Shown here in pieces: positions 20,283-49,682 of a stretch of 64,000 nt of DNA. How positions within the stretch are numbered: position 1 is the first letter of the stretch; each line of letters begins with the position of its first letter. Under the pieces are notes generated by a model, which was not told where the DNA came from, made no database searches, and saw only the letters and a program-made list of their open reading frames with translations. A program made the position numbers and the translations under genes. This DNA comes from Bacteroidota bacterium (GTDB lineage: Bacteria > Bacteroidota > Bacteroidia > Palsa-965): the NCBI GenBank assembly GCA_016194975.1, contig JACQAM010000007.1, forward strand, positions 186,001-250,000, in the 5' to 3' direction.

Positions 20283-20301
20283 CATTTTTGAATTCTTTAA
20301 T

Positions 20302-24255: not shown

Positions 24256-24272
24256 TAAAAACTATTTACCGG

Positions 24273-24306
24273 AAGGCCGTTTTCACTTAGGAAACGGCCT
24301 TTTTTA
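24273..24306 (+). terminator. Rho-independent terminator after second SprB adhesin
   Basis: The 10-bp stem AAGGCCGTTT (24273-24282) / AAACGGCCTT (24292-24301) is followed by a T-run. Confidence 0.85.
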
Positions 24307-24407
24307 TTGTTTTTGAACAATTGTTGGTATCAATTATTTGATTTTATTCAGAATTGCTATATATTGGCTACGGCAAACACTTGAATTTCACTTAAATCCC
24401 TTCCAAT

Positions 24408-30029: not shown

Positions 30030-30044
30030 ATAATTTCACTTGTT

Positions 30045-30078
30045 GAACGGTCATCGGAAATTCCGGTGGCCGTTTTTT
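30045..30078 (+). terminator. Terminator after giant SprB adhesin
   Basis: The arms AACGGTCATCGG and CCGGTGGCCGTT pair over about 12 bp, with two G-T wobbles and an AAATT loop. T6 follows. It ends just before the start of the next gene (30090). Confidence 0.7.
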
Positions 30079-30089
30079 ATTTTCAACTC

Positions 30090-34052: not shown

Positions 34053-34532
34053 ATGAACCAGGCAGTAAAAACAGGATTGGTGACCGGCGCAATCTCCGTC
34101 GCCTGCATGATAGGTGTGATCTACGTGCCACGCGGAAATGCCACCGCCATTTTCCAGTATGCTTCCTTTCTTGTTTTTCTCAGTGGCGCTTACGTGGCCA
34201 TCAAGCGCACGCGCGATCACGAGATGGACGGGCACATCGAATTCAAACTCGGATTGAAAGCAGGCGTAAGTGGTGGAAGCGTTGCTGCGCTTATGATCAG
34301 TATTTTTCAGTTCATCGCGTGGACACACATTGACCTGAAAGAATTCACCGGCGAACTGAAAATTCACGGCGCAAGCGACAGTGAGATCATGGCGCAACTT
34401 CGCGGTGTAACGCGTGGAAATTTTTTCCGTGGAGCAAGCATGCTGTGCGCAACAAATATCATTCTTTCACTTTTTGTTTCCATTGCCGCTTCACTTATCC
34501 TTCGCAAAAAAGGCGGGCTGCTTAATCAGTAA
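34053..34532 (+). CDS. DUF4199-like small membrane protein
   Basis: A 159-residue inner-membrane protein with four hydrophobic segments: about 8-25, 30-48, 68-88, and 125-148 followed by RKKGG. It has a polar stretch at 90-120 (FTGELKIHGASDSEIMAQL). The pattern of an AVKTGLxTG start, a SGAYVAIKRTR loop and a final KKGG tail resembles the DUF4199 family, which is largely confined to Bacteroidota and has no known function. It sits between rho and the convergent lipid operon and is transcribed alone. The membrane topology is clear; the family assignment is moderately sure. Confidence 0.7.
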   Translation: MNQAVKTGLVTGAISVACMIGVIYVPRGNATAIFQYASFLVFLSGAYVAIKRTRDHEMDGHIEFKLGLKAGVSGGSVAALMISIFQFIAWTHIDLKEFTGELKIHGASDSEIMAQLRGVTRGNFFRGASMLCATNIILSLFVSIAASLILRKKGGLLNQ

Positions 34533-34688: not shown

Positions 34689-35582
34689 CTAATTTTTTTT
34701 TATGAACGGATATTTCAACTGGCCCCAGATGGAATTGGGAACTTTGTCCTTATCCTGAATTCCAACTTTATTTATTTGTTTTTCTTTTGGAAAATAAAAT
34801 GTGCCGAATACAATGTCCCATACTGAAATAATTTTCCCAAAGTTAGAATTGGATTCGCGCACTTCAATCGAATGATGCCACCGGTGAAGCTGCGCGGTAT
34901 TGAAAAAATAATTAAGATACCCTGCTCGAAAATCCACATTGGCATGTTCGAGAAAACCTGTGACTGCACTTAATCCGATAAACAGGATCATTACTTCAAC
35001 CGGAGCCCCGAATAATACCAGTGGAAAAAAGAAAAACAGGGAATCTATGAGTGTGTCAAGAAAATGAAATCTTCCGGAATTAATCCAATAAACTCTTTCA
35101 CAGGCATGATGAACAGCATGGAATCGCCATAGAAATTTATTAGTGTGGCTAAAGCGATGAATCCAGTAAAAACAGAATTCAGCCATTAAAAGAATTATGA
35201 ATAGCTGCAGCAGGACAGGAATTCCGGCTGACCAGATATTGATACCGATTTTATTTCTGACCCATAATGCAGGATAAAATAAAATAAGCGGCAAAATATT
35301 TTCAATGATCTTGGAAGCAAGAGGAACGGAGACAAAAGTCTGAACAAAATCCGCACCGGCATCGCCCTGATTTTTTTGCCACTCCTTTTTGTACGGCAAG
35401 TACCTTTCTCCAATTTCAATAATAATTATGACACCAAAAACAAGCAGGAGTGGTATGAATGGCCAGTATTTTTTTTCAAAATAACCGAAAAGCATCATAT
35501 TGACAGCTAAGCAACCAAACACGATCAACGGGTAGAAAGAATATTGCACGGCTCTTATGAGTGCAGGATTTTCAGATTTCAT
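34689..35582 (-). CDS. Fatty acid hydroxylase / sterol desaturase family protein
   Basis: A 297-residue integral membrane di-iron oxygenase with the full histidine-box set: HRFSH, HAVHH, LEHANV and LHRWHHS, set among four or more hydrophobic helices. Family members hydroxylate or desaturate sterols, fatty acids, carotenoids or alkylglycerols, using oxygen at the membrane. ATG 35582 is preferred, because the longer frame would run 68 bases back into the P450 gene with sequence unlike the family. It is the last gene of the nine-gene minus-strand lipid operon, 40 bases after the P450 gene, so a tailoring oxidation of the pathway product is likely. Substrate unknown. A second family member lies at 58196. 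Confidence 0.9.
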   Translation of the reverse strand: MKSENPALIRAVQYSFYPLIVFGCLAVNMMLFGYFEKKYWPFIPLLLVFGVIIIIEIGERYLPYKKEWQKNQGDAGADFVQTFVSVPLASKIIENILPLILFYPALWVRNKIGINIWSAGIPVLLQLFIILLMAEFCFYWIHRFSHTNKFLWRFHAVHHACERVYWINSGRFHFLDTLIDSLFFFFPLVLFGAPVEVMILFIGLSAVTGFLEHANVDFRAGYLNYFFNTAQLHRWHHSIEVRESNSNFGKIISVWDIVFGTFYFPKEKQINKVGIQDKDKVPNSIWGQLKYPFIKKN

Positions 35583-35622
35583 TTTTTTACGGCTACTTTC
35601 AAAACTGTACAATGGTTTGTAT

Positions 35623-36996
35623 TCATGATTTTCTTTTTTCAAGTTGAACGATAATGTCTTTTTCAGGGCGAAGTGTAATATAAGCACCAAGCTTAACGTT
35701 ATCTCCGCTCACAATTTTTATTCTGAATTTCCTGATAATAGCCGCTACAGTTATCAGCAATTCCATCATTGCAAAATTCTGCCCAATGCATAATCTCGGC
35801 CCTCCTCCGAATGGAATGTAGGAATAGGGTAATCTGTTTTTTGAATTTTCAGGAGAAAAACGTTCGGGATCAAATTTATCAGGTTCATTCCAGTATGCGG
35901 GATGCCGGTGCATCACATAAGGGCAGATCATAATGTCAGTCTTCTCCGGAATAATATAATCGCCAAGTTTGTCTTCCTTGATCGTTTGCCTTCCGATCAA
36001 CCATATAGGAGGATATAACCGGAGCGATTCTTCAATTACCTGAGAAGTATAAATCAGTTGCGGTAAATCCTCGAATGAAATTGGTTTGTTCTTCGCAACA
36101 TTTTTAACTTCAATTAATATTTTTTCCTCAGCATCAGGGTTTCTGGCAAGGAGATAAATGCACCACATCAAAGCGTCCGCGGAAGTTTCATGTCCTGCCA
36201 GGAAAATGGTGAGTACCTCATCGTGCAGTTGTTTATCGGTCATCCCCTCCCCTGTTTTTTCATCGCGCGACTTCATCAGCATGGATAAAAGATCAGTATA
36301 CTCATCCACTTTATTTCTTCGCATTTCAATGGTCCTGTAAATTACTTTATCAATATTTTCAGAAGCTTTCGAAAATTTTATGTTCGCAGGGGTCGGGAAA
36401 TTTGCCGGGAGATTAAACGGATTGGTCCGTGTTCTGTTGTTCACATATTTTAGTGCGTAGGATAATGCATGCCAGAATTCGTCCGGTTCATTTTCAAAAT
36501 CAAAACTCAACAGCGTAATTCCTGTTATTCTCGAGGTGAGTTTGATCAACTCGAGAGAAAGGTTGATCGTTTTATTTTCATTCGTCATTCCTTCCCACCG
36601 GTCGAGCATCTCACCCACAGCATGAAGAACAGTATTTGAATATTCCTGGATATTTTTTCTGCTGAATGCAGGTTGCTGAAGCCGTCGCTGTTTCAGCCAG
36701 AAATCACCTTCACTGGTCAGCAATCCATTTCCAAGAAATAGCCGCAGCGGAGCATAGCCGGTACCTTTGGTATAGTTGGTATTATTTTCCTGTAAAATTT
36801 GCTTGATATAATTCGGATTACTTACCAGGGCAAATTTGAAATTCAATGCCTTGAAAAAAACAACATCGCCGTATTTCCGCATATTTTTAAGAACAAATTC
36901 CGTCGGATTCAATGCGAATCCCATCGCGTTACCGATCAGTGGAATAGATTGGGGCCCGGGTTTCTTATTCAGCTTTGTCGTCTTACTACTTTTCAT
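35623..36996 (-). CDS. Cytochrome P450
   Basis: A 457-residue soluble P450 with no membrane anchor. It has the N-terminal GPQSIPLIGN, the I-helix oxygen-binding motif FLAGHETSAD near 270, the ExxR pair in EESLRLYPP, PERFSPEN, and heme loop FGGGPRLCIG with Cys near residue 402. It resembles the CYP102/CYP4-like bacterial lineage that often acts on fatty acids or terpenoids. Its ATG overlaps the stop of the upstream acyl ligase by 4 bases, giving tight coupling. No ferredoxin or reductase gene is nearby, so electrons must come from elsewhere. In this operon it presumably hydroxylates the lipid or isoprenoid intermediate. The substrate cannot be inferred from sequence. Confidence 0.95.
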   Translation of the reverse strand: MKSSKTTKLNKKPGPQSIPLIGNAMGFALNPTEFVLKNMRKYGDVVFFKALNFKFALVSNPNYIKQILQENNTNYTKGTGYAPLRLFLGNGLLTSEGDFWLKQRRLQQPAFSRKNIQEYSNTVLHAVGEMLDRWEGMTNENKTINLSLELIKLTSRITGITLLSFDFENEPDEFWHALSYALKYVNNRTRTNPFNLPANFPTPANIKFSKASENIDKVIYRTIEMRRNKVDEYTDLLSMLMKSRDEKTGEGMTDKQLHDEVLTIFLAGHETSADALMWCIYLLARNPDAEEKILIEVKNVAKNKPISFEDLPQLIYTSQVIEESLRLYPPIWLIGRQTIKEDKLGDYIIPEKTDIMICPYVMHRHPAYWNEPDKFDPERFSPENSKNRLPYSYIPFGGGPRLCIGQNFAMMELLITVAAIIRKFRIKIVSGDNVKLGAYITLRPEKDIIVQLEKRKS

Positions 36997-38534
36997 TTTG
37001 CAGAGGATCTTAATTGCAATCGGAGCAAAGCGTAATCAATTTTTGAATTATGCCTGGGGTCGCGTGGAATTTTTTTCAGAAAAATAATTTTATCGAATTC
37101 AATTCCGTAAGTGTACGCCTTTTCACGCGCTGCTTTTTCCTGCGACGGATCATTAAGTTCAAGGACCGCTGTCAATTTTTCACCGAGCATCATTACTGTT
37201 CCCATTTCAATTCCGGGAATAGTCTGAAAAATATTTTCATAGATGAAAGGGGCAATAATTTTTCCGCCCTTCGTGATCAGGGTGGCGCACCTGCCCGTTA
37301 AAAATAAATTCCCATTCTTACCCAGGTAGCCGCTGTCGCCGGTACGATGCCAGCAATTTTCACCGATGAATATTTTATTCCTCCTCAGGCCTTCGGGATT
37401 GTTGAAGTATTCTGTAAGAACATGATCGCCACTTACAATTATTTCCCCAATCACAGTTTCCGGAACTTCCAACGCGTTCAACTCCTGCTCACTTGTCACC
37501 GCAATATTTTCTTCTGTGATCTGGATGACTTTTACGGTTGTATTTTTATCCGGTTTACCCACGTTGAGTCCACGTTCAGAAATTCTATCTGCACTTTGCA
37601 CAAGTTCCTTCACATCAATTGAACTGATAGGTTCGGCTTCAGTGGAACCGTAAACAATTTGCACTGCAGCATCGGGAAATGCATTTCGATAAATGATCGC
37701 TTCGCCGGGAAAAACAGGAGCCCCACCCGTGAATATTTTTTTCAGGTGCGGCAATAAAATTTTATTTTTAATGACATACCTGGAAATTTCTTTCACAAAA
37801 AACGGAGATGCCGTTATCCTGTTTACTGAATTCGATTCAAGTTGCCCGATTATTTTTTCCGGTTGCAGTGAACCCGGCTTGCCCGCTTTGAAATCGGCTA
37901 TCACTGATGTTGTTCCTGAACCAAGGTTTATAAGAAGTACGATCGGTAGAACAGGCATGTCAATATCATCTTCTGCCGGATTAATTTTGGTAAGTAGTGC
38001 ATTGAATTGCACTTGCAAAAAACCATGCGTTCGTTTTGCGGCTTTAGGAGTTCCCGTGCTTCCTGTTGTAAATGTAATAAGGGCAGTATCCTCCCTGGAA
38101 GTAGCAGGAAATGCTACAGGAGAAACCGGCGCTGAATAATTCACACCAAGATGAATCGGAATTTTTTTCAATTCAGATGAAAAAAACGAGAGTATTCTCG
38201 CTTTGAATATTCCAATGAATACTTTGCATCCTGCTACCTTGCAACATTCTTCCATTCTTTTTTTGCTCACCCATTCATCAAGAAAAACTGCAGTAGCGCC
38301 GATCCTGAAAAGTGCCAGGACAATTCTGTACAGATCAAAACTCATAGGAACAAAAATCATAACGCGGTCGCCTTTACAGATTCCTTTACTCATAAAATAA
38401 GCGGCGGTATCCGTAATCTGTTTCCGGAATTCTCCAAACGATATTTTTTGTCCCTTATAAATGATTGCGGTCTTTTGCGGATCGCGTTCCGCAGACTCAA
38501 AGAATAAATCAACTATGTTGAAATTATTTTTCAT
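36993..38534 (-). CDS. AMP-forming acyl-CoA/acid ligase (ANL superfamily, OleC-like)
   Basis: A 513-residue adenylating enzyme. The P-loop is TFTTGSTGTPKAAKRTHG (about 148-165), the A5 motif is YGSTEAEPIS, the A7/A8 region is WHRTGDSGYLGKNGNLFLTGR, and the catalytic Lys is in HNSKIDYALLR near 500. It activates a carboxylic acid to an acyl-AMP, usually transferred to CoA. The STEAEPI motif and overall order resemble the branch containing OleC (a beta-lactone synthetase acting on beta-hydroxy acids), but no oleA, oleB or oleD homologue is present. In the lipid operon it lies 18 bases after the GNAT-like gene and overlaps the P450 gene by 4 bases. It probably activates an acyl or isoprenoid acid building block. 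Confidence 0.88.
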   Translation of the reverse strand: MKNNFNIVDLFFESAERDPQKTAIIYKGQKISFGEFRKQITDTAAYFMSKGICKGDRVMIFVPMSFDLYRIVLALFRIGATAVFLDEWVSKKRMEECCKVAGCKVFIGIFKARILSFFSSELKKIPIHLGVNYSAPVSPVAFPATSREDTALITFTTGSTGTPKAAKRTHGFLQVQFNALLTKINPAEDDIDMPVLPIVLLINLGSGTTSVIADFKAGKPGSLQPEKIIGQLESNSVNRITASPFFVKEISRYVIKNKILLPHLKKIFTGGAPVFPGEAIIYRNAFPDAAVQIVYGSTEAEPISSIDVKELVQSADRISERGLNVGKPDKNTTVKVIQITEENIAVTSEQELNALEVPETVIGEIIVSGDHVLTEYFNNPEGLRRNKIFIGENCWHRTGDSGYLGKNGNLFLTGRCATLITKGGKIIAPFIYENIFQTIPGIEMGTVMMLGEKLTAVLELNDPSQEKAAREKAYTYGIEFDKIIFLKKIPRDPRHNSKIDYALLRLQLRSSAK

Positions 38535-38552
38535 TTTTATTTTTGATCAACT

Positions 38553-39563
38553 TTAAAGTGCTTTGCCGTACAACGCATAATTCTTATAGACCTCGCCGAA
38601 AGTATTTCTTGATAATTGCACCGACGTTCCTTCTTCCCGCATAAATGCATGAACCAAAGATTTGTAACCGGCATTCATGGCCCGTTTGAGAATTACATTT
38701 GCCATAATGTGTCCTAACCCTCCCCATTTTTTATCCGGGTGCCTTGCAATGGATTTTACGATAAGCGATTTTTCTGTACGGTTAAAAAAATCTTCCACGC
38801 AGAAAAAAAATCCTATGATGTTACTCTTTTCATCTTCAGCAATAATTACAAATTCAGGGTTTATGAATTTTCGCGCTTCGGTGTATTTTTTTTGAAATGT
38901 TCCCAGTGATACCGGTGTGTAAAGAAAATTGGTATGAAACGCCAACTCATTGAACTCAAACATTTTTTTTAATTCATTTTTAAAATCAGCGAGGTTGATA
39001 TTCCTGATCTTCATGCCCGATGCTACCAATTGTTTCTCCCGCTGAATTAATTCCGGAATATCGGCCTTCATTTCACGTTCAAGACTTGAGAAATATTTTG
39101 CGATTACCTCAAAACCTGAATCGACAAATTGCCGGTTGTAGTACAAATGCTGGTACGGTTCTAAAAAAAAATTGGGAGCGTTATGATGCAGACTGAAACG
39201 GTAATTATCCCACGTACTTCCATTCATTGGCCCTATCAGGTAAGCTGCACCCAGTTGTTTTGCTTCTTGTGCAACATAAGCAAGTAAAGTTTCGGAAACG
39301 GCCGCATCATTCACCGATTCATAATTTCCGATACAAAAGGATTTTTTTCCATTGTACATTAAATAAGGATTATTGTAAAGCGCGATCCTGGCCCTGCATT
39401 GTCCATCTTCTGTAAGCACATAACAGGATTCAAGATATTCTGTATTGATAGGGTCAGGAAGTTTGAAATGCAAACTATCAGCGGGATAAATATTTTTCGG
39501 AAAATTTTCAAAGAGATTAAAATTTCCGTCACCGGGTTTTGTCGGAACGATGGTGTATTTCAT
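38553..39563 (-). CDS. GNAT-superfamily-like acyltransferase (possibly YghO-like)
   Basis: A 336-residue soluble protein. The C-terminal half (about 180-330) has the look of a GNAT fold, with FVIIAEDEKSNIIGFFFCVED as beta4-like strands and LIVKSIARHPDKKWGGLGHIMANVILKRAM as the acyl-CoA-binding loop and helix. The N-terminal half contains LIGPMNGSTWDNYRFS, a conserved block that I associate tentatively with YghO-like proteins. It would N- or O-acylate a small molecule or lipid headgroup. It starts in an ATGA overlap with the kinase-like gene and ends 18 bases before the acyl ligase, whose acyl product it could use. The fold assignment is moderate; the substrate is unknown. Confidence 0.65.
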   Translation of the reverse strand: MKYTIVPTKPGDGNFNLFENFPKNIYPADSLHFKLPDPINTEYLESCYVLTEDGQCRARIALYNNPYLMYNGKKSFCIGNYESVNDAAVSETLLAYVAQEAKQLGAAYLIGPMNGSTWDNYRFSLHHNAPNFFLEPYQHLYYNRQFVDSGFEVIAKYFSSLEREMKADIPELIQREKQLVASGMKIRNINLADFKNELKKMFEFNELAFHTNFLYTPVSLGTFQKKYTEARKFINPEFVIIAEDEKSNIIGFFFCVEDFFNRTEKSLIVKSIARHPDKKWGGLGHIMANVILKRAMNAGYKSLVHAFMREEGTSVQLSRNTFGEVYKNYALYGKAL

Positions 39564-40252
39564 AAGAAAAAAATTAAAATTGTAATTACACAGGCAGGAA
39601 TGGTAATGTTGTCACTTCCTTTACCGCTCACCGCTTCCACAACGCAAGCCGATAAAGCTATTCCCGCTGCAAGAAGGAGAAGATGAAAAGTACCAGAAGA
39701 ATATTTCCCGGAACAAACCAGCATCACGATCGAAAGCAGTACGCTGCTGATAAAAAATGCGCCGGTCCCCACGATTGTTTTAGTGTCCTTCCCGATTGTG
39801 AATTTTCCGTAAGGATATTTTTTTCCGAATAGGGCAGCCATCGGATCACAAATAGCGAGCGTGAGAATCGGCAAATAAAAATAGATGTATTGATCCGGCG
39901 TTCTTCCGGATTTGTTTGTATAATAATTATATACAAGATAACATCCGTAAACGGAAACCGGATACAGAATACTGCCAAAAGAACTTCGCTCAATTGCATT
40001 GATAGATTTGAGCAGATTGAATTTCAAACTGGCCAGTAGTATGAACGCAAAACTTCCGCAAAGAAAAAGAACAAACCATTGATTGCTGAGCATAAGCGGA
40101 AATAACAGTGTGAGCAGTCCTGTTCCGAAATGAACGAGCTTTCTGGTGAGTTCAACCTTTACTTTAAATTTATGGTAAAGAATTTCCGCCAACCCGAAAA
40201 GCAGGAGAAAGGATGCCGCAAGAATGGCCGTATGAATAATGTCTTTGCTCAT
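39560..40252 (-). CDS. Phytol/dolichol-kinase-like (CTP:polyprenol kinase or cytidylyltransferase family) membrane enzyme
   Basis: A 230-residue polytopic membrane protein with about seven hydrophobic helices. It carries the signatures of the family that holds plant VTE5 phytol kinase, dolichol kinase and some phosphatidate cytidylyltransferase-like enzymes: ELTRKLVHFGTG (about 34-45), ERSSFGSILYPVS, CDPMAALFGKKYPYGKF and a final EAVSGKGSDNITIP. These enzymes usually transfer phosphate from CTP to a membrane alcohol such as a polyprenol. The gene is coupled by 4-base overlaps on both sides within the lipid operon. Together with a UbiA prenyltransferase it suggests activation of an isoprenoid alcohol. 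A cytidylyltransferase role on a lipid phosphate is the main alternative. Confidence 0.8.
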   Translation of the reverse strand: MSKDIIHTAILAASFLLLFGLAEILYHKFKVKVELTRKLVHFGTGLLTLLFPLMLSNQWFVLFLCGSFAFILLASLKFNLLKSINAIERSSFGSILYPVSVYGCYLVYNYYTNKSGRTPDQYIYFYLPILTLAICDPMAALFGKKYPYGKFTIGKDTKTIVGTGAFFISSVLLSIVMLVCSGKYSSGTFHLLLLAAGIALSACVVEAVSGKGSDNITIPACVITILIFFL

Positions 40253-41340
40253 TTTATTGTATCGATGATGAACTGGCTATAGAAAAAACCTTTGTCTTTT
40301 TCCATCAAAGCAAGAGACGTTTCTTTCTCATAGGAAACTTTCTCAGGAAAATTTCCGGATATTCTGCGCGGAACCATCAGGTTCCAATAAGCAAGTTTCC
40401 CTCCCTGTTGCGTGCCGGCAATCAACTCTTCCGCCGTTGAAGCAAAATGTTTCTCATCCATATATTCAAATATGTTGGAAAGATTCATAAAATGAAATTT
40501 TCCGTATTCAGTGATCGCGTTCTGGGCATAACCTTCTTTTATCTTCAACCGGTCTATATTCCGTTTTATTATTTCGAAATTATTTTTCCGGAGATAGTGG
40601 GGCAACAATGTCCCGAAGTTCCGATTCATGATAAAATAAAGCATGAAATTTTTCTGGGCCTTCCCGGTTTTTAAATGCACGCCTGCCTTGCTGAAAATAT
40701 ATTCCGAAACAGGTACTTCCACTTCTTTCAGAAATTCCGGATCCCTTCCGAATTTACCCATCACGTATTTGCTGAAGAATATCCTGAACAGCATTCTCCA
40801 CCTCCATGAATTCCATTTTTCATTATAGAATTTCTCCTGCTCCTTATCTGTTTTATCCCGGAATAATTCTGCTATTGTTTTTTTAGAATGGATCCATGGC
40901 AGAACTCTTCCACTGAACATTTGGAAATATTTTTCAAATTTCCCCTGGTAAATCACGCCATCCGCGATCGTTTGAATATTTTTTTCCCAATAATTTTTTG
41001 CATCATCACTTAAATCATTTTTGACCTGATCAAAGTAATCTTTCCTGTTCTCAGAAGGGATAAATCCTAAAAAAGCCAGGACTGCGTTATGATCGAATTT
41101 TTTTATAGCAACTTTCTTGAGTTCGATCAGGTAGAGCTGTATCCTGTTCACATCAACCGCAACTACCAATTCCGGATCTGCTGCAAGCATAGAAAAACTA
41201 TTATCACCTGCCGAACCGACCGAGAGAATTCTGCTTCCCGAATGAGGTGACAATCCCTCAAGGAGAATATCAGCATCCTCCCAGCAATTCGCATAGCGGA
41301 TGATCTCGAAATCGACGCGTTCTGTCAAATCGTCTTTCAT
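40249..41340 (-). CDS. BtaA-like (DUF3419) SAM-dependent 3-amino-3-carboxypropyl transferase
   Basis: A 363-residue protein of the DUF3419/BtaA family. Landmarks are RYANCWEDADILLEGL (about 15-30), the SAM-binding SVGSAGDNSFSML (about 40-52), VAVDVNRIQLYLIELK, and a C-terminal YGKFHFMNLSNIFEYM. BtaA transfers the 3-amino-3-carboxypropyl group of S-adenosylmethionine to diacylglycerol, the first step of betaine lipid (DGTS) synthesis. BtaB, the N-methyltransferase that normally follows, is absent here. Within this operon it sits between the dikinase and the polyprenol-kinase-like gene, with 4-base overlaps. Transfer to an isoprenoid lipid instead of diacylglycerol is possible. The family call is good; the acceptor is inferred only. 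Confidence 0.82.
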   Translation of the reverse strand: MKDDLTERVDFEIIRYANCWEDADILLEGLSPHSGSRILSVGSAGDNSFSMLAADPELVVAVDVNRIQLYLIELKKVAIKKFDHNAVLAFLGFIPSENRKDYFDQVKNDLSDDAKNYWEKNIQTIADGVIYQGKFEKYFQMFSGRVLPWIHSKKTIAELFRDKTDKEQEKFYNEKWNSWRWRMLFRIFFSKYVMGKFGRDPEFLKEVEVPVSEYIFSKAGVHLKTGKAQKNFMLYFIMNRNFGTLLPHYLRKNNFEIIKRNIDRLKIKEGYAQNAITEYGKFHFMNLSNIFEYMDEKHFASTAEELIAGTQQGGKLAYWNLMVPRRISGNFPEKVSYEKETSLALMEKDKGFFYSQFIIDTIK

Positions 41341-43958
41341 GCTTTCTGAATTATTTTTATTTCTCCGCTACTGCCGTCCATTTCTATTTCGTCTCCTGTT
41401 TTTAAAGTCTTGAGCAGTCCCGTAACCGAAACGATGCAGGGTTTTCCCATTTCGCGTGAGACGATGGCGGAATGACTCAGTAAACTTCCGCGCTCCACAA
41501 TTATTCCGGATGCACTTGGAAAAAGTGTCACCCAACCCGGATCAGTGCTGGATGTTACAAGTATATCTCCATCAAGAGAAGAAACTTCATCGGGATTCAA
41601 TATTACTTTCACTTTTGCTTTTACCCTGCCGGGGCAACACCCGATTCCTTTCAGATCTCCTTCTACTTTATTCACCCTGCTCAGACTGAAAAAATCATTC
41701 GCGTGGTAAACGGTTCCATAGGTTGCGAATCTTTCTGACGGAATATCCTGTTTCTGATAATTTTCAAATTCCGTTTTCCTCAGTTGAATCAGCGCTTTTA
41801 TATTCTGTGTTACGGAGGTTCCTTCGATAAAGCAGAATATTTCTTCCCGTGTGAGATAAAAAATATCCCGCGCGTTTTCAATGATCCCATCGGAATAAAA
41901 CCGGGTTCCCATATTCGAAAATATTTCGCGTACAATTCCGAAAGCTCTGGTCCGTTCATAACGGAGATTTTCCCTCGAACTGACCAGCGCACGGGCTTTG
42001 CTCAACGTTCTTTTCAACTTCCATTTTCTGTAAATATTATATTGAAGTGTTGCATTGACTTCCTTCTCCGCATTTGCGCGGAGTTCTTCTTCTATTTTCC
42101 CTGATGTGGTTTTCAGCGTAATGCCGGTTTCAACATAGGATTTTAATATTTTAATGAATTTAGCCGGATCCTGCGTGTAAGAAACTGTTTCAAGTTTAAG
42201 TTCACCAATGCAGCGTTCTCCGAAATCAGAAATATACCGGTCAATCTCTGTTTTCAGTTCACGGTATTTTTCCGCTTTATTTTCTGAAAGGTTTTTCCAG
42301 ATTGTTTTTTCATTTTCATGGATGAATAACTTTTTTAATTCTTCATCGGATGAAATAGAAGTGGCAAGAGCTATACTGCGATGAATGGGTTGAATGGAAA
42401 TAATGTCGCTGCTGCCACAGAGAAGATCGTTGTGAATGTTCTGATTTTTTTTGCTCAGGCCATATTTCACGCATCGTTTCTGAAGAAGGCCAAACCAGAT
42501 CATCGCAAAAAAGTCATTCAATAATGGCGCTTTCCATTCATTCAGCAATGTTCTTTCGAATTCGAGATACAATTGCATCAGTTCATTCGCATTTTTCTCG
42601 CTGTAATTGATTTTCTTATAATGAGAAATAGTTTCATTAAGCAACTTCATGAACGCTCTTCTTTTCCGGGGAAGAGAAATGAACCGCATATACATTCTCC
42701 CGATCATTTTTACAATGCTCCACCATGCTTTTCCTTTCGTCAAACGGTAGGTTTCCGGAATATCAAACCGCTCTTTCACACCCATCATTTTTTCCATGAA
42801 ACGCGCATTAATGCTATAGCCGGGCAGCATAGCGAGCATGTGATACCATGTTTTTAAATTATAATAAACTCTTCCGTTAATCAACCCGAGTGTATTCGCA
42901 AATACTCTTTCATTTTGTTTCTGGGTTTTTTCACTCACGCCCATAAAGCCACCAAAAAGCCGGTAAGCGCCCTCGTACGATTTGCTGATAAAAGAAAAAG
43001 TAAGCGGCGTGGTAATTCCCGGATAAGATTCAATGATATTACTGTTATCCCAGAGAATGTAATCTCCGCTCTGATCATTGAATTTATTTAGTGTAGTTAT
43101 CGGCCTTGCCTGCAACAGGAACAATTCACCGGATCTGAAAGCAAATTCAATGTCCTGTGGTTTTTTATATTCGGAAAAAAGCTGGTCGAGAATCCTGCCG
43201 ATCCCGTAAACTTTCTGCTCATCCAGCGAAGCGATGTTCTGTTTCACTTTTTCAACCTCGGCCATCCTGGTTCCACCGGAACTTTCTGAATCAAGAATAA
43301 TTTTATGTGTCTTTTCGGTAAGTTGCGAATTTATTTTTTCCCGGGTTAATGTATAATTATCTGAATTCAGTTCGCCGGATACAAGGCCCTCACCCAAACC
43401 ATATACCGAACTGATCAGTTTTTCATTTTTGTTTCCATTCATGGGATTTATCCCGAAGGCAACACCGGCAACTTCCGCATCAATCATTTCCTGGATGATA
43501 ACTGCAATTCCGAATTTCTGCTCCAGCTTATTGTTTTTCCTGTATTCAAAAACTCTTTCGGAAAAAGCCGAGCACCATACTCTTTTTATTTTTGCAGCAA
43601 TATTTTCTTCTTTTACAAACAAATGACTTTCAAATTGCCCCGCGAAAGAAAATTCACTTCCGTCCTCGTCAATTGCAGAAGAACGCACAGCAAAATATTC
43701 TGTACCCGGAAAATCAGCACGGATCTTTCTGATGAATTCTTCCGGAATGCTGATACGATCAATAAAATCAATGATACTTTTGTAATCAGAGTTCCTGATA
43801 TCTTCCGGAACAAGTGAAATCAATTCTTCCTGCGGGATCACCGCGAATTTAGGAACGTTCATCCCGATCTCTGCCATGCGAAAAAGATTTCTCGCTTTGC
43901 CGCCAACGACAAAATCTTTCGCACACTCTTTTTCAGTATTTAAAAAATAACGCATCAT
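41337..43958 (-). CDS. PEP-synthase/rifampin-phosphotransferase-like dikinase
   Basis: An 873-residue protein. The N-terminal ATP-grasp domain (1-320) has GGKARNL, FAVRSSAIDEDG (about 89-100), SFAGQFES, IQEMIDAEVAGVAFG, YGLGEGLVSG and LQARPITT. A helical middle region (about 330-760) begins WDNSNIIESYPGITTPLT, as in the rifampin phosphotransferase branch. The C-terminal swivelling phosphohistidine domain has GSLLSHSAIVSREMGKPC, with catalytic His near 829. The PEP/pyruvate-binding TIM barrel of true PEP synthase is missing, so it likely moves the beta-phosphate of ATP onto a small molecule or lipid alcohol. I choose ATG 43958 (ATGA overlap with the UbiA gene); the frame upstream of it is antisense-like sequence inside that gene. 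Substrate unknown, probably a pathway intermediate. Confidence 0.85.
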   Translation of the reverse strand: MMRYFLNTEKECAKDFVVGGKARNLFRMAEIGMNVPKFAVIPQEELISLVPEDIRNSDYKSIIDFIDRISIPEEFIRKIRADFPGTEYFAVRSSAIDEDGSEFSFAGQFESHLFVKEENIAAKIKRVWCSAFSERVFEYRKNNKLEQKFGIAVIIQEMIDAEVAGVAFGINPMNGNKNEKLISSVYGLGEGLVSGELNSDNYTLTREKINSQLTEKTHKIILDSESSGGTRMAEVEKVKQNIASLDEQKVYGIGRILDQLFSEYKKPQDIEFAFRSGELFLLQARPITTLNKFNDQSGDYILWDNSNIIESYPGITTPLTFSFISKSYEGAYRLFGGFMGVSEKTQKQNERVFANTLGLINGRVYYNLKTWYHMLAMLPGYSINARFMEKMMGVKERFDIPETYRLTKGKAWWSIVKMIGRMYMRFISLPRKRRAFMKLLNETISHYKKINYSEKNANELMQLYLEFERTLLNEWKAPLLNDFFAMIWFGLLQKRCVKYGLSKKNQNIHNDLLCGSSDIISIQPIHRSIALATSISSDEELKKLFIHENEKTIWKNLSENKAEKYRELKTEIDRYISDFGERCIGELKLETVSYTQDPAKFIKILKSYVETGITLKTTSGKIEEELRANAEKEVNATLQYNIYRKWKLKRTLSKARALVSSRENLRYERTRAFGIVREIFSNMGTRFYSDGIIENARDIFYLTREEIFCFIEGTSVTQNIKALIQLRKTEFENYQKQDIPSERFATYGTVYHANDFFSLSRVNKVEGDLKGIGCCPGRVKAKVKVILNPDEVSSLDGDILVTSSTDPGWVTLFPSASGIIVERGSLLSHSAIVSREMGKPCIVSVTGLLKTLKTGDEIEMDGSSGEIKIIQKA

Positions 43959-44926
43959 CCGAAAAGTAGTTTTGAAATCATGGGACCGCCTCCCAGCGTC
44001 AGGTACATGGCCATGGTCCATAAAGCGGAAGCGTATTCTATCATCCGCGAAAGCCGGTATGTTTTGGTGCGGAGAAAAAGAAAAGCGGGAAGAGAACACA
44101 AAATAAAAACACATCCAAGAACAATGAATGACGTCATTCCGTATCCCGCAAAAATACTTGCAGCAACATTAAGGACAAGTGTAATGAGTAACATAAAAAG
44201 CCACAGTATCACAGCGCGATTGGTTCCAAGCATGGACGTATAGGAGAGTACACCGTGCGCTTCTTTTTCCGGCGTGCGTATTTTTCTCCCGATCTCCAGT
44301 ACAATTCCATTCATATAAGTCACTGCAAAAAAGAACATCAATCCGGATGGGGCGCGCACACCATTAAGAAGCCAGTCCAGCCCGCTGGAATAAATATCGA
44401 TGAGCGGAATAATGAACATGTGAGAGGTCACGTACCAGAACTGGTGTTTCTTCAGCCATTCGCCCACAAAAAATTCTTTCCCCATCAGCGACAAATAAGC
44501 GATGATAATAAAATAAATGATCAGTATTTTCGGGAAGAAGATCAGGTTCACAGTGACCTGGAGAATTACAATACTAATTCCCATAATGGCAAGTTCCCTG
44601 AACGAGAGCAATCCTCTCGGCATCGGAAGTTCCTTCCTGTATTTTGCGTCATCCTCCGCATCTTTGAATTCATCAAATATCCTGACGAGAAGAAAAAGGG
44701 AAATCGTAGTAAAAATTCCTGCGAGATAAATTTTCCAGTCTACAAATCCGTGTGCGCCCCTGCATATCCGCGAGTACGCAATGGCAGAAAAACTGAATGA
44801 GGCCACTAATATTCCATGACCGAGTATCGGGAACCGTTCATTCTGATAGATGTAAAATCTTTTCAGAAAAGAAGCGTTGTTCTCTTCTGCTTTACTGAAT
44901 TCGTTTTCGCTGACTCCTGTTTTCAT
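43955..44926 (-). CDS. UbiA-superfamily prenyltransferase
   Basis: A 323-residue membrane protein with about nine helices. The first Asp-rich motif is FDEFKDAEDD (residues 84-93), a DExKDxxxD variant of the usual NDxxDxxxD. The second is EIGRKIRTPEKE (211-222), in place of DxxxD. Both binding sites keep acidic and basic residues for Mg-diphosphate, so activity is plausible. UbiA enzymes attach a prenyl chain from a prenyl diphosphate to aromatic or glycerol-based acceptors, and some cyclise terpenes. The gene overlaps HMG-CoA reductase upstream and the dikinase downstream by 4 bases each, which ties prenyl transfer to mevalonate supply. The superfamily is sure; acceptor and chain length are unknown. 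Confidence 0.88.
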   Translation of the reverse strand: MKTGVSENEFSKAEENNASFLKRFYIYQNERFPILGHGILVASFSFSAIAYSRICRGAHGFVDWKIYLAGIFTTISLFLLVRIFDEFKDAEDDAKYRKELPMPRGLLSFRELAIMGISIVILQVTVNLIFFPKILIIYFIIIAYLSLMGKEFFVGEWLKKHQFWYVTSHMFIIPLIDIYSSGLDWLLNGVRAPSGLMFFFAVTYMNGIVLEIGRKIRTPEKEAHGVLSYTSMLGTNRAVILWLFMLLITLVLNVAASIFAGYGMTSFIVLGCVFILCSLPAFLFLRTKTYRLSRMIEYASALWTMAMYLTLGGGPMISKLLFG

Positions 44927-46200
44927 TTTTTTCTTCCCAGTTTTTTGTGCGCCGAAGAAAAATGTCCTGCAGAAAGTGCGGCGGCAATGGAAAGTTCACC
45001 GGAAAGAATAACAGCTCCGCATATTTCAGCAAGTTTTCTTGCCTTGCCCTTTCCGTAACAATCCATTAATTCCAGGCATTCTCTTTGCGTGGGTAACGCT
45101 GTTCCGCCTCCTACAGTTCCCAATATCAAATTAGGCAACGTTACGCATGCATATAAATTTCCACCGGAAGTAACTTCCATTCTTGTAATTCCTACTGCTG
45201 CTTCCGACACGCACGCCACGTCTTGCCCTGTTGCAATAAAAAGCGCTGTAATTCCATTGGCAAAATGGCCTTGCGCACCAATTGCGCCGCTTTGAATTAT
45301 TCCAACTGTTGATGTCTGCCAATATTCGGCCATGATCTTAGGAGTGGTTTTCAGAACTTTTTCTACTATTTCTTTCGGCAGCTCCACTTCGGCCGTCACT
45401 TTTTTTCCGCGGACAGTTGTGAATGAAAGTGAAGTAGCTTTCTTATCGCCGGAATAATTTCCTTCAATGAACCAGAATACAGGTTGCACCGGCGTATTGG
45501 CAATGATATACTGACAGATTTCATCCGTACATATCGTTACCATATTCTGTCCCGAAGCATCACCGGTCTGGTACTCGAAAGTGATCATCAGGTTATTTCC
45601 TTCAATGTTCGGAATTACATCTAATAATTTCGCATGCTGACTTGTTGCCTCAATAATTTTTTTGAACTCCTCCACTTTTGAAAGCGCCCAAAGTAGAAAA
45701 ATTCCCAATTCACCAATGTTATTGAACTTGAAAACCGGACTTCGCTGAACCGCCTCAATTAAACAAATAGAAGTTATTCCGCCGCACAAACGGGTTGCTT
45801 TGGCTCCCCGGTGATAAGAGGCCACGAGCGCTCCTTCACTTGTTGCGAGCGGAACAAAAAAATCTCCCTGTGCTGCAGAACCAAGAACTCTCAGCGGGCC
45901 TATTATTCCTGTCGGAACCTGCGTCATACCTATGTAGTTCTCAATATTGCCTTCGAGCATTTTTGTATCCGCAAATATTTTTTTTCCGGCAAGGCAATCC
46001 GCATTTTTTCCTGTTTCTTTTTTCAGGTAATCCAGGCGCAGAGCTTGTCCTTCTGCAGATGCCATGGCTTCAATAGGAAAATGATCGTGCGTTATTTCCT
46101 GCGAAGATTTTTCTTTTATTTTTTTTATCAGGTCTGCAATATTGTGATGCTCGTCCAGGATCTGAATAGCACGCGAAGCTCTTGAAGTGGAAGTTCCCAT
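44923..46200 (-). CDS. Class I hydroxymethylglutaryl-CoA reductase
   Basis: A 425-residue HMG-CoA reductase, the NADPH-dependent committed step of the mevalonate pathway. All four catalytic residues known from the human enzyme can be located: Glu122 in TSEGALVAS, Lys253 in GDKKA, Asp327 in GQDVA, and His413 in SAGHFSS. Further motifs are ENYIGMTQVPTGIIGPL and the NADPH-site GDASGQNMVT, both typical of the class I (biosynthetic) form. There is no membrane domain. ATG 46200 is preferred over 46311, because a TTTG-N16-TAGATTTG promoter lies at 46245-46272. It is the first gene of the nine-gene operon and overlaps the UbiA gene by 4 bases. No other mevalonate-pathway gene is in the window. Confidence 0.96.
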   Translation of the reverse strand: MGTSTSRASRAIQILDEHHNIADLIKKIKEKSSQEITHDHFPIEAMASAEGQALRLDYLKKETGKNADCLAGKKIFADTKMLEGNIENYIGMTQVPTGIIGPLRVLGSAAQGDFFVPLATSEGALVASYHRGAKATRLCGGITSICLIEAVQRSPVFKFNNIGELGIFLLWALSKVEEFKKIIEATSQHAKLLDVIPNIEGNNLMITFEYQTGDASGQNMVTICTDEICQYIIANTPVQPVFWFIEGNYSGDKKATSLSFTTVRGKKVTAEVELPKEIVEKVLKTTPKIMAEYWQTSTVGIIQSGAIGAQGHFANGITALFIATGQDVACVSEAAVGITRMEVTSGGNLYACVTLPNLILGTVGGGTALPTQRECLELMDCYGKGKARKLAEICGAVILSGELSIAAALSAGHFSSAHKKLGRKK

Positions 46201-46244
46201 TGGATCGTTTTTTATTTTAGAATTGTTGATTAGGATGAACGAAG

Positions 46245-46272
46245 CAAATCTAAATACGGAGTCAGGATCAAA
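46245..46272 (-). promoter_or_regulatory. Promoter of the nine-gene lipid operon
   Basis: On the minus strand TTTG (46269-46272) is followed after 16 bases by TAGATTTG (46245-46252), an exact TAnnTTTG element. The predicted transcript start is about 38 bases before the HMG-CoA reductase ATG. No operator-like palindrome was seen. Confidence 0.7.
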
Positions 46273-46620: not shown

Positions 46621-46710
46621 GCTAATTATGTTACTGCAGCGCGTTGAAATTCCTGCATCACTTTCTGTTTTGTGTCCTTCGTTTTCCCTTGCAAAAACCA
46701 CCTTTTTTCG

Positions 46711-46718
46711 TAACTTGC
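46711..46718 (+). promoter_or_regulatory. Possible -7 element (TAACTTGC) for the Ig-repeat adhesin
   Basis: It differs from TAnnTTTG in its last three bases and lies 32 bases before the ATG at 46743, close to the spacing seen for stronger sites here. Weak. Confidence 0.3.
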
Positions 46719-46742
46719 TATGCTCAAATCCCTACTCTGAAA

Positions 46743-49682
46743 ATGAAAAAATGTTTACTTTTTTTCATTCCGTTTTTTTCCCTTTCAATTTTTTCGGATG
46801 CCCAGTCTTTCATGAACGGAAGTTTTGAGATCAATACAGCCGGCGTCGATCAGATCAATCTTTCCAATCCTGCTTTCAACGGTTTCATGTCGAACACAAT
46901 CGCCTTCGGAAGTTTCGGCGACATGGATATCATCCGCTCAGCAACTTATTGCGGGCTTCCGCAGAACGGAACGTGGTACACCGCGCTCACCGGTTCCGGA
47001 ACAGATGCAATCACCATGCAACTCGCCGCTCCATTGGTAACGGGAACAACGTACACCATCACTTTCTGGGATAAAGGTTGCTGGGGAACTTATTCGACCA
47101 GCGCTCCTCCTGTGCAGATCGGACTTTCTACTGTTGCAGGCGCATTGGGAACTGCAGTTTATACTGCACCTGCTCCAACAAATAATGTGTGGGTGCAACG
47201 CACTGCAACTTTTGTTGCACCAAACAACGGACAATATATTTCTGTTGTACTCACAGCAGGTGGCCTCGGCGACTGGACACAGATCGATAATTTTGCTTTC
47301 TCTGCAGCTGCTTCTCCCACTGCAAATTTTACTGCATCGAATACAAATATCTGTCCGAACAATTGCATCAACTTCACCGACATGAGTACGGGCGCACCCA
47401 CTTCCTGGTCGTGGACCTTTGCAGGAGGAATTCCCGCAACTTCCACAGCGCAGAATCCAACAAACATTTGTTATTCCACTCCCGGAACTTATGCAGTCAC
47501 TCTTACTGCAACAAATGCAAACGGATCGAACACCATGAACCAGACCACTTACATCACGGTAAATCCATTCCCTACAGTTACAGCAGCTTCTTCCGGAACC
47601 ATCACCTGCGCGAATCCGAGCGTAACACTTACGGGAACGAGCGCAGGAAATACCATGGTGTGGAATGGCGGCGCACTGGTGAATGCACCGAATCCCGCTA
47701 CCGTTAGTGCAGCTGGAACCTACACTTGCACTGCCACAAGTCCTGCAGGTTGTACTGCAACACAAACCATCACGGTCACATCCAATACCACTCCGCCTGT
47801 AGTTACTGCAGCTTCTTCCGGAACCATCACGTGCACGAACACGAGCGTAACGCTCACAGGCACGAGCGCGGGAAATACCATGGTGTGGAACGGTGGAGCG
47901 CTCGTAAATGCCCCGAATCCGGCAACTGTTTCTGCAGCCGGCACCTATACTGTGACTGCGACTGACGCAACTAACGGTTGTACTGCAACACAAACCATCG
48001 CCGTTTCATCAAATACAACTCCTCCCACTGTCATTGCAACTACAAGCGGAAATCTGTCATGCACTGTTTTATCAGTTACTTTGACCGGAACAAGTGCAGG
48101 GAATACTATGGTGTGGAACGGAGGCGCTCTCGTAAATGCGGCAAACCCGGCAACAGTTTCTGCAGCCGGATCTTATACCGTTACCGCGACTGATGCCACG
48201 AATGGTTGTACTGCAACACAAACCGTCACTGTCACATCCAGCGCAACACCGCCGGCTGTTACGGCAACAGCATCAGGAAATATTACCTGCACTACTACAA
48301 GCATTACACTCACGGGCACGAGCGCAGGAAATACCATGGTGTGGAATGGCGGCGCGCTGGTGAATGCACCGAATCCCGCTACAGTTAGCGCAACGGGAAC
48401 TTACACCTGCACCGCAACGGATCCTGTTACCGGTTGCACAAATACAACTACGGTCACCGTCACCGCAAACACCACACCACCTGTTGTTACTGCAACGGGC
48501 GGAACGCTCACGTGCTTCACCACCTCCGTAGTGCTCACGGGCACGAGCGCAGGAAATACCATGGTGTGGAATGGCGGCGCGCTGGTGAATGCACCGAATC
48601 CCGCAACAGTTAGCGCAACAGGAACCTATACGGTGACTGCAACTGATCCCGCGAATGGTTGTACTGCAACACAAACCGTCACTGTAACATCAAATACAAC
48701 TCCGCCAACTGTTACTGCAACATCATCGGGAAATATTTCCTGTACCAATCCTACTTCAACGCTCACCGGAACTTCTGCCGGAAGTACAATGGTGTGGAAC
48801 GGAGGTGCACTTTCAAACGCGTCAAATCCTGCGACAGTGAATGCAGCCGGAACCTATACGGTAACTGCAGTGGATATTGCGAATGGTTGCTCCAGCACAG
48901 CAACGATCACGATCACGGCAAATATAACTCCGCCATCAGTAACCATAGCGCCTGCCGATACGATCACTTGCGCTGTGACTACCGTTGCATTGAGTGCAAC
49001 CGGATCAGCGGGAGTAACCTATTCGTGGGCCGGCCCCGGAATTCAGAGCGGCGGAAATTCCGCAACACCTATTGTGAGTGCCGGTGGAAATTATACCTGC
49101 ACGGTTACCAACCCGGTGAATGGTTGTACTGCAACACAAATCGTGAATGTAGTGGCGAGTGTAAATCCTCCTGTTGCAACTGCGGGCGGCGGAGCAACAA
49201 TCAACTACGGCAACAGCACATTGCTCACCGGTACCGGCGGGGGAACTTACGCATGGCTTCCACACGCGGGACTGAGTTGCTACAGTTGTCCGAATCCTAC
49301 TGCTTCACCAACTGTAACGACAACTTATTGTGTGAACGTCACTGATTCGCTTGGATGTTCCGACAGTGCGTGTACGATAGTGGTGGTGGATATCACTTGC
49401 GGAACTTTTGGTTTTCCCAATGCATTTTCACCGAATAATGACGGGGAGAATGATGTATTCCATTGCATGATCAACCCGGGTTGCATCTCAGATTATCACC
49501 TGGTGATCTATGACCGCTGGGGAGAAAAAGTTTTTGAGACTGAAGATTACACGCAGGGATGGGACGGAACAGTGAAAGGAGAATTACTCGACAATGCAGT
49601 TTTTGTTTATTACGCCACAGCAACACTGAGCACCACGAAAGAAAAATTAGTGAGAAAAGGAAATGTCAGTTTGATACGGTAA
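46743..49682 (+). CDS. T9SS-secreted protein with Ig-like repeats and type B CTD
   Basis: A 979-residue secreted protein: signal peptide (MKKCLLFFIPFFSLSIFSDAQ), a beta-sandwich N-terminal domain (about 22-195; SFMNGSFEI, TYTITFWDKG, QIDNFAF) that looks carbohydrate-binding-like, and a PKD domain (WSWTFAGG). Then come about eight Ig-like repeats of roughly 75 residues. Six are nearly identical around LTGTSAGNTMVWNGGALVNA and TYTCTATD; two are diverged. The CHU_C sorting domain closes the protein (FPNAFSPNNDGEND, IYDRWGEK, QGWDG). ATG 46743 is chosen because it begins the signal peptide. The gene ends 10 bases before a PorP/SprF gene, the typical arrangement for a type B CTD substrate and its outer-membrane partner. 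Likely a surface adhesin. Confidence 0.9.
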   Translation: MKKCLLFFIPFFSLSIFSDAQSFMNGSFEINTAGVDQINLSNPAFNGFMSNTIAFGSFGDMDIIRSATYCGLPQNGTWYTALTGSGTDAITMQLAAPLVTGTTYTITFWDKGCWGTYSTSAPPVQIGLSTVAGALGTAVYTAPAPTNNVWVQRTATFVAPNNGQYISVVLTAGGLGDWTQIDNFAFSAAASPTANFTASNTNICPNNCINFTDMSTGAPTSWSWTFAGGIPATSTAQNPTNICYSTPGTYAVTLTATNANGSNTMNQTTYITVNPFPTVTAASSGTITCANPSVTLTGTSAGNTMVWNGGALVNAPNPATVSAAGTYTCTATSPAGCTATQTITVTSNTTPPVVTAASSGTITCTNTSVTLTGTSAGNTMVWNGGALVNAPNPATVSAAGTYTVTATDATNGCTATQTIAVSSNTTPPTVIATTSGNLSCTVLSVTLTGTSAGNTMVWNGGALVNAANPATVSAAGSYTVTATDATNGCTATQTVTVTSSATPPAVTATASGNITCTTTSITLTGTSAGNTMVWNGGALVNAPNPATVSATGTYTCTATDPVTGCTNTTTVTVTANTTPPVVTATGGTLTCFTTSVVLTGTSAGNTMVWNGGALVNAPNPATVSATGTYTVTATDPANGCTATQTVTVTSNTTPPTVTATSSGNISCTNPTSTLTGTSAGSTMVWNGGALSNASNPATVNAAGTYTVTAVDIANGCSSTATITITANITPPSVTIAPADTITCAVTTVALSATGSAGVTYSWAGPGIQSGGNSATPIVSAGGNYTCTVTNPVNGCTATQIVNVVASVNPPVATAGGGATINYGNSTLLTGTGGGTYAWLPHAGLSCYSCPNPTASPTVTTTYCVNVTDSLGCSDSACTIVVVDITCGTFGFPNAFSPNNDGENDVFHCMINPGCISDYHLVIYDRWGEKVFETEDYTQGWDGTVKGELLDNAVFVYYATATLSTTKEKLVRKGNVSLIR
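47588..48950 (+). repeat. Near-identical tandem Ig-like repeats (about 225-231 bp)
   Basis: Six consecutive units. A 71-bp block at 48309-48379 is identical to 48534-48604. Such sequence identity points to recent duplication or gene conversion, and the array length is likely variable between strains. Confidence 0.9.

Follow-up and report, generated by a model that had tools for sequence, protein, structure and literature searches.

Seven genes of a Bacteroidota bacterium, encoding an HMG-CoA-reductase homologue (HMGR), a UbiA-superfamily transferase, a dikinase, a DUF3419 protein, a phytol-kinase-like enzyme (PHYK), a GNAT protein and an acyl ligase, form a conserved cassette that recurs in at least a dozen phyla (about 13) and looks like an undescribed membrane-lipid pathway. 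The reading that we tentatively favour, with confidence falling a little short of even, is a dedicated and mobile membrane-aminolipid pathway that would yield a putative phospholipid on a homoserine-derived backbone. Residue conservation and gene content indicate that the cassette HMGR has an altered substrate pocket and plays no part in isoprenoid synthesis. The genes lie within the 64,000-nucleotide stretch of DNA analysed here (the window), the minus strand of which carries, from 46200 to 34689, nine open reading frames, all of them starting with ATG. The features of the region are as follows.

46245..46272, minus strand: TTTG-N16-TAGATTTG, a possible promoter of Bacteroidota type (present, at no more than chance frequency)
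44923..46200, minus strand: non-canonical class I HMG-CoA-reductase homologue, 425 aa (PF00368, 378 bits; residue table; PDB alignment)
43955..44926, minus strand: UbiA-superfamily membrane transferase, 323 aa (PF01040, 35.1 bits, above the cut-off of 34.2; motifs)
41337..43958, minus strand: PEP-synthase/rifampin-phosphotransferase/PigC-like dikinase, 873 aa (PF01326 and PF00391; NCBIfam PRK06241.2-2, 782 bits)
40249..41340, minus strand: DUF3419 protein of the BtaA-like SAM aminocarboxypropyltransferase family, 363 aa (PF11899, 216.5 bits, above the cut-off of 28.2)
39560..40252, minus strand: PHYK, putative CTP-dependent membrane kinase resembling phytol/dolichol kinases, 230 aa (invariant motifs; AF2 fold)
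38553..39563, minus strand: tandem-GNAT acyltransferase, 336 aa (AF2 pLDDT 95)
36993..38534, minus strand: AMP-forming acyl ligase, OleC/PRK09274-like, 513 aa (PF00501, 139 bits)
35623..36996, minus strand: cytochrome P450, accessory, 457 aa (PF00067, 320 bits; FGGGPRLCIG at 396)
34689..35582, minus strand: di-iron fatty-acid/amino-lipid hydroxylase, accessory, 297 aa (PF04116, 105 bits)

The initial annotation had described a nine-gene coupled operon, and this description holds: all of the reading frames are present, and are joined by six 4-nt overlaps (HMGR/UbiA; UbiA/dikinase, within which the dikinase start at 43958 falls; dikinase/DUF3419; DUF3419/PHYK; PHYK/GNAT; ligase/P450) and by gaps of 18 bases between GNAT and ligase and of 40 bases between P450 and hydroxylase. 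The neighbours of the operon are a DUF4199 gene in convergent orientation (34053-34532) and a divergent gene beginning at 46644. The family calls were borne out by Pfam matches to HMG-CoA_red, UbiA, PPDK_N with PEP-utilizers, DUF3419, AMP-binding, p450 and FA_hydroxylase; the GNAT and phytol-kinase-like proteins gave no Pfam match at an E-value of 0.001. The promoter proposed at 46272-46245 is not usable as evidence, since 4.2 occurrences of its pattern would be expected in the window and three are found. Terminator-like sites occur at a frequency near chance.

Linkage of these genes in other genomes, which had been suggested as a test, was assessed at 38 loci picked by DUF3419 alone and having flanks of at least 6.5 kb per side. 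All seven genes are present at 26 of them, the ligase being found at 35, UbiA, dikinase and GNAT at 34 each, PHYK at 32 and HMGR at 29, with a median gene spacing of -4 nt. The gene order recurs beyond chance across many phyla, including Bacteroidota, Verrucomicrobia, Planctomycetes, Lentisphaerae, Chloroflexi, Spirochaetes and Myxococcota. With UbiA and DUF3419 as independent seeds, strong matches to the two proteins fell in one and the same group of nine genomes among 148 relatives, and pairwise distances computed for the seven families are correlated with one another (r 0.78-0.95). Cultured carriers comprise Dyadobacter, Rubritalea profundi, Lentisphaerae WC36 and Roseinatronobacter sp. S2, and a plasmid of cultured Roseinatronobacter bears the whole set. 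The expected linkage thus extends to seven genes, whereas the P450 and the di-iron hydroxylase are accessories that are not conserved with the cassette. An incomplete open-access search, covering open-licence PMC papers without preprints, returned no publication describing the seven-gene set; the lipocone paper was considered as a prior description and rejected, as its neighbourhoods differ.

The HMGR homologue, which is the sole HMGR of the host genome, has the fold, the catalytic Glu/Lys/Asp/His and the GTVGGGT motif of class I HMG-CoA reductases. Its catalytic residues Glu87, Lys253, Asp327 and His418, equivalent to Glu559, Lys691, Asp767 and His866, are kept in all aligned cassette copies. 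In human numbering, Lys735 forms a salt bridge with the carboxylate of HMG and Ser684 provides a polar contact (PMC9500038). These positions are occupied by Ser and Lys in the human, archaeal and plant enzymes of the PDB alignment, but by Glu246 (Ser684) and Thr296 (Lys735) in the window protein; indeed, the Ser684 position is acidic (Glu/Asp) in 37 of 37 cassette HMGRs, none of the 37 retains Lys at position 735, and Met657 is replaced by Gln. On the other hand, Arg590 and Lys692, which also contact HMG, are conserved, which counts against the model favoured here. The TIGR00533 equivalog score is 326 bits against a cut-off of 441.8. References were taken from the PDB and from a Streptomyces mevalonate operon, since the canonical HMGRs examined from Bacteroidota and Caldilineae lack the class I GTVGGGT (VGGAT in Caldilineae) and were unusable for this purpose. 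A second non-canonical HMGR type, of about 515-540 aa, showed no neighbour conserved across phyla.

The initial annotation had the reductase supplying mevalonate to isoprenoid synthesis, with a prenylated (meroterpenoid) lipid carrying an oxidised amino-acid-derived head group as the product. Membership of the HMGR and UbiA families and the intact catalytic residues are in keeping with this proposal, but the host uses the MEP pathway (DXR is present) and neither HMG-CoA synthase nor mevalonate-PP decarboxylase was found in its genome, a pattern repeated in most of the cassette genomes tested. Together with the loss of the HMG-carboxylate contacts in every cassette HMGR and the existence of several complete cassettes without HMGR, this makes mevalonate supply unlikely. 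Since the organisms that encode it have no mevalonate pathway and its HMG-holding residues are lost, the homologue probably reduces something other than HMG-CoA. HMGR is missing from some cassette genomes (the complete Lentisphaerae WC36, L053, as well as L047, L068 and L077), so that the reduction is either not universal or performed by another enzyme. Prenylation may still proceed from MEP-derived prenyl-PP through UbiA; the prenylated nature of the lipid is backed by UbiA family membership, although this divergent protein is its sole basis. The first Asp-rich motif is present (RIFDEFKDAEDD at residue 82; DEFKDAEDD), but the second DxxxD motif is absent, a conserved ExxRK (EIGRK at residue 211) standing in its place.

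Fusion proteins of HMGR with a small-molecule kinase of the APH/EcKL type occur in five lineages (MAGs of Thermincola and of Spirochaetes, two genera within Bacteroidota, and a plasmid from Streptomyces). This suggests that the alcohol formed by HMGR is probably phosphorylated and strengthens the earlier idea of a phosphorylated product. PHYK was not found at these fusion loci, and probably fills the role of the fused kinase in the window operon. PHYK, which is about 450 aa long in most other phyla, has the invariant motifs ExxRKxxH, DxxAAxxG, KSxxGSxxF and GxDNxxxP, and its AlphaFold model (AF2 pLDDT 93) matches best the fold of CdsA (4q2g, Z 9.1, for an all-helical protein), a resemblance to CTP-dependent membrane enzymes of the CdsA/CarS kind that is weaker than the match found for the GNAT protein. 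CTP_transf_1 matches weakly in five of 32 PHYK members and is absent from the window protein. In one genome (L119), an HMGR-PHYK pair lies without other cassette genes beside CdsA and a CDP-alcohol transferase. Two further sets (L130 and L163) combine HMGR, kinase, CarS, dikinase and UbiA without a detected DUF3419; what HMGR reduces may therefore be something other than the compound made by DUF3419. The co-occurrence of UbiA, CTP-transferase and CDP-alcohol transferase in L163 recalls the archaeal route to ether phospholipids, with its UbiA ether synthase, CarS and CDP-alcohol transferase, from which the cassette differs in that no GGGP synthase was seen and that HMGR, kinase and DUF3419 are additional.

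The reductase could instead act on leucine-derived HMG-CoA, and the mevalonate, once PHYK or the fused kinase has phosphorylated it, would then be a lipid building block. This is conceivable because HMG-CoA-lyase-like genes occur in the Bacteroidota cassette genomes (165-214 bits, under the 246-bit cut-off), and the cassettes of mevalonate-pathway genomes (Caldilineae and G048), which have no linked HMGR or PHYK, agree with it. However, Ser684 and Lys735 are lost everywhere and three Verrucomicrobia with a cassette HMGR show no credible HMG-CoA lyase or synthase, leaving this route slightly more doubtful than mevalonate supply.

The roles of UbiA and the dikinase are guesses. The dikinase has the ATP-binding and phospho-His swivel domains of rifampin phosphotransferase, PigC and RedH, with His829 as phospho-carrier in a conserved SH motif, but scores only 284 bits where the cut-off is 999 and 352 bits where it is 1300, the former (283.8 bits) for the NCBIfam rifampin phosphotransferase equivalog. 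The GNAT model superposes on the tandem GNAT 7q3a (Z 22.9, rmsd 3.8, 293 aligned residues). The ligase, with a C-terminal PRDPRHNSKID, scores 339 bits with PRK09274, under the cut-off of 478, and the hydroxylase 219 bits with the OlsE model NF052566, under 475. By family and linkage, ligase, alcohol-forming reductase, phytol-kinase-like enzyme and UbiA could be chained in the salvage or breakdown of an isoprenoid alcohol or acid (CoA ester formation, HMGR-like reduction, phosphorylation and UbiA transfer), amino transfer being incidental; this is improbable, as DUF3419 and GNAT, conserved equally with the rest, are left unexplained.

BtaA matches DUF3419 (PMC6642084), which supports the aminocarboxypropyl-type step that had been proposed for the operon; a search by sequence gave no PDB relative for DUF3419, whose acceptor could be another one or which could be a SAM enzyme of a different kind. 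A DGTS-like betaine lipid centred on BtaA is highly improbable: DUF3419 does predict DGTS synthesis in algae (PMC6642084), but the conserved cassette genes share with the BtaA/BtaB pathway only this family, include no BtaB-type N-methyltransferase, the gene for which adjoins the DUF3419 gene in Rhizobium leguminosarum (whose DUF3419 is only 21% identical to the window protein), and comprise six other enzymes that such a pathway leaves unaccounted for.

In the aminolipid pathway that we favour, UbiA and the dikinase would make or activate a long-chain alcohol or ether part. DUF3419 would attach the 3-amino-3-carboxypropyl group from SAM to a lipid hydroxyl, so that an ether of homoserine type results, R-O-CH2-CH2-CH(NH2)-COOH. 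The ligase would activate the carboxyl group, an acyl chain or both, with the amine N-acylated by the tandem GNAT. The HMGR homologue would take the resulting acyl thioester through a four-electron reduction to CH2OH; where HMG-CoA reductase binds the HMG carboxylate, its new Glu/Asp would face an amine or a different group that is not a carboxylate. PHYK, or the APH/EcKL kinase elsewhere, would then phosphorylate the alcohol. A head group may be added by the CdsA/CarS-like and CDP-alcohol transferases that some genomes encode alongside, and the P450 and di-iron enzyme would hydroxylate the product in the window operon. The predicted end product, similar to ceramide phosphate, is a phospholipid whose backbone is an N-acyl-homoserinol ether. 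The model is firmer on the non-mevalonate HMGR and on the phosphorylation of its alcohol than on the order of the steps preceding reduction and the exact structure, which are conjecture. Of the earlier interpretation, a single co-oriented operon for an uncharacterised lipid is retained, mevalonate supply is not supported, and P450 and hydroxylase stand outside the conserved unit.

Ceramide synthesis in Caulobacter involves an acyl ligase and a GNAT-type N-acyltransferase. The cassette resembles bacterial ceramide synthesis in its ligase and GNAT pair, able to N-acylate an amino lipid, and in the phosphorylated head, but it includes no serine palmitoyltransferase (SPT), and the nitrogen would derive from SAM via DUF3419. 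That many phyla possess an SPT-independent, sphingolipid-like route, in which a BtaA-type homoserine ether is N-acylated, HMGR-reduced and phosphorylated to a ceramide-phosphate mimic, is a bolder and unlikely proposal.

A pathway so widespread, if real, would add a class of membrane lipid. It would also be a case in which the fold of HMG-CoA reductase, intensively studied as a drug target, was co-opted to carry out a different reduction. The annotation 'HMG-CoA reductase' in bacteria with the MEP pathway should not be taken to mean mevalonate synthesis, and the cultured carriers make the pathway testable.

The operon described in the initial annotation is real, and as unusual as was judged there. 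On the minus strand, nine consecutive genes (46200 to 34689) are arranged head to tail, with 4-nt overlaps at six junctions and 18 and 40 bases at the remaining two, and with a GC content of 40.5%, against 44.2% for the remainder of the window:

HMG-CoA-reductase homologue (HMGR), 425 aa, minus strand, first gene of the operon
UbiA, 323 aa, minus strand
dikinase (DIK), 873 aa, minus strand
DUF3419 protein, 363 aa, minus strand
phytol-kinase-like membrane protein (PHYK), 230 aa, minus strand
GNAT, 336 aa, minus strand
AMP-forming acyl ligase (LIG), 513 aa, minus strand
P450, 457 aa, minus strand
di-iron hydroxylase, 297 aa, minus strand

Seven of the nine proteins were confirmed by Pfam, while GNAT and PHYK were modelled instead. 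The GNAT model (pLDDT 95) confidently displays a tandem-GNAT fold (Z 22.9, r.m.s.d. 3.8, 293 aligned, against 7q3a). The top structural match of the PHYK model (pLDDT 93) is CdsA, with CarS within the first ten, although a match at this level (Z 9.1, r.m.s.d. 6.0, 169 aligned) is only suggestive for an all-helical protein; the PHYK sequence contains a phytol/dolichol-kinase-like signature. Elsewhere in the window, large SprB/PKD-repeat proteins bearing CHU_C type IX secretion signals are encoded at 17832-30764, and a similarly repetitive protein at 46644-49682.

The conserved unit is seven genes rather than nine. When 84,980 species genomes were scanned with DUF3419 as the sole seed, 73 loci were obtained, and profile searches of their flanks revealed recurrent HMGR, UbiA, DIK, PHYK, GNAT and LIG. 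Of these loci, 38 have 6.5 kb or more of flank on either side; all seven genes are present at 26 of the 38, and UbiA, DIK, GNAT and LIG each at 34-35. Since the loci had been selected through DUF3419, linkage was rechecked with other seeds; in 148 host relatives, strong matches to UbiA and to DUF3419 fall in the same nine genomes. Pairwise distances among the seven families are correlated (r 0.78-0.95). Bacteroidota and Verrucomicrobia share one gene order, and in other groups the genes are rearranged or divided between the two strands; the DUF3419 tree, representing 13 phyla, groups mainly by phylum. Linkage in other genomes, the check proposed in the initial annotation, thus holds for these seven, but not for the P450 and hydroxylase, which are local tailoring enzymes, since few loci (L027/L126, L047 and L117) carry their homologues. 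A divergent LIG/DUF3419/EcKL-kinase/GNAT/DIK/UbiA cluster without linked HMGR or PHYK is found in the mevalonate-pathway Bacteroidota genome G048 (L128, 8500-16339). On a Deefgea piscis plasmid (L175, 7186-9415), DUF3419 adjoins an iron-containing redox enzyme and adenosylmethionine decarboxylase, a setting that differs from that of betaine lipids.

Transfer of the cassette is likely, because Roseinatronobacter sp. S2, an alphaproteobacterium in culture, has all seven genes on a plasmid (with HMGR spanning the origin of the record) and because the host DUF3419 is closer to Chitinophagaceae (68%) than to its own genus (50-53%).

The cassette HMGR does not serve isoprenoid synthesis: the earlier view of it as a mevalonate source is contradicted by both genome content and active-site residues. 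The only HMGR of the host lies in the operon; DXR of the MEP pathway is present, and HMG-CoA synthase and mevalonate-PP decarboxylase are missing from the genome, a pattern shared by most other cassette genomes. It does not extend to Caldilineae and G048, where the mevalonate pathway is used and neither HMGR nor PHYK is linked to the cassette, or to G159, in which mevalonate genes are present in addition to the cassette. Within the host family, HMGR occurs in cassette-bearing genomes and in none of the cassette-free ones. HMG-CoA-lyase-like genes of Bacteroidota score below the cut-off; leucine is a possible weak source of HMG-CoA there, and is not evident as one in three Verrucomicrobia with a cassette HMGR.

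Alignment to solved enzymes revealed that the host HMGR retains the four catalytic residues, with Ser684 replaced by Glu and Lys735 by Thr (human numbering). In all 37 cassette HMGRs position 684 is Glu or Asp and position 735 is never Lys, while a Streptomyces HMGR within a mevalonate operon retains both Ser and Lys; Arg590 and Lys692 are still present in the cassette enzyme. Lys735 forms a salt bridge with the HMG carboxylate and Ser684 a polar contact with the same moiety (PMC9500038). Judging from sequence, an acidic residue at 684 is expected to repel a carboxylate group and might accommodate an amine.

Other HMGR homologues were observed. A second non-canonical type of about 515-540 aa, with an N-terminal extension and a likewise acidic position 684 (L114, L115, L116, L177-L185), is found in MEP genomes and, in Caldilineae, alongside a canonical HMGR; it has no conserved neighbours across phyla. 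HMGRs encoded on Vibrio plasmids or second replicons (L169, 8001-9023; L173, 6001-7122) share 50-55% identity with that of the window and have Asp at 684, with no cassette genes nearby. An Alteromonas macleodii plasmid homologue with Ala at 684 (L170, 2349-9110), downstream of a thermostable-hemolysin-family gene, an AMP-binding ligase, an iron-containing redox enzyme and an SDR, possibly marks another HMGR-containing pathway.

The alcohol produced by HMGR is probably phosphorylated. HMGR of this type is fused to an APH/EcKL-type kinase in five lineages (L152, equivalent to L074; L154; L130; L163; L174), at loci where PHYK was not found, and an unfused EcKL-type kinase adjoins DUF3419 in the divergent G048 cluster. 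At L119 an HMGR-PHYK pair without other cassette genes lies beside a desaturase, a CDP-alcohol phosphotransferase and CdsA, while at L163 and L130 a CarS-like protein follows the fusion, and DIK and UbiA lie close by. These fusions and arrangements make a route from alcohol through alcohol phosphate and CDP-alcohol to a phosphodiester plausible. In two cassette-free Bacteroidota (L161, 6777-8917; L162, 6843-8822), PHYK homologues adjoin CdsA-like and CDP-alcohol phosphotransferase-like genes, which suggests a separate small phospholipid module.

BtaA acts on a lipid hydroxyl, to which it attaches the aminocarboxypropyl moiety of SAM. BtaA belongs to DUF3419 (PMC6642084), and the cassette member would form an ether-linked amino acid. 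The ligase and GNAT, adjacent at most loci, could carry out activation and N-acylation; reduction of an activated carboxyl to CH2OH would fall to HMGR, and phosphorylation of the resulting alcohol to PHYK. Should the DUF3419-derived carboxyl be the substrate of HMGR, the backbone would be HO-CH2-CH(NH-acyl)-CH2-CH2-O-R, a ceramide-like structure. UbiA and DIK, adjacent in almost every cassette variant, presumably provide or activate R; in L054 the ligase is fused to UbiA, which ties the ligase to the R side and makes its substrate ambiguous. The order of steps is conjectural and, given that HMGR is missing from some cassettes (L053, L047, L068 and L077), reduction must be optional or performed by other means. 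No description of the pathway or product was found in the open-access literature, the coverage of which was incomplete. The enzyme families are already known, and the operon is of a lipid biosynthetic kind, with a putative product.
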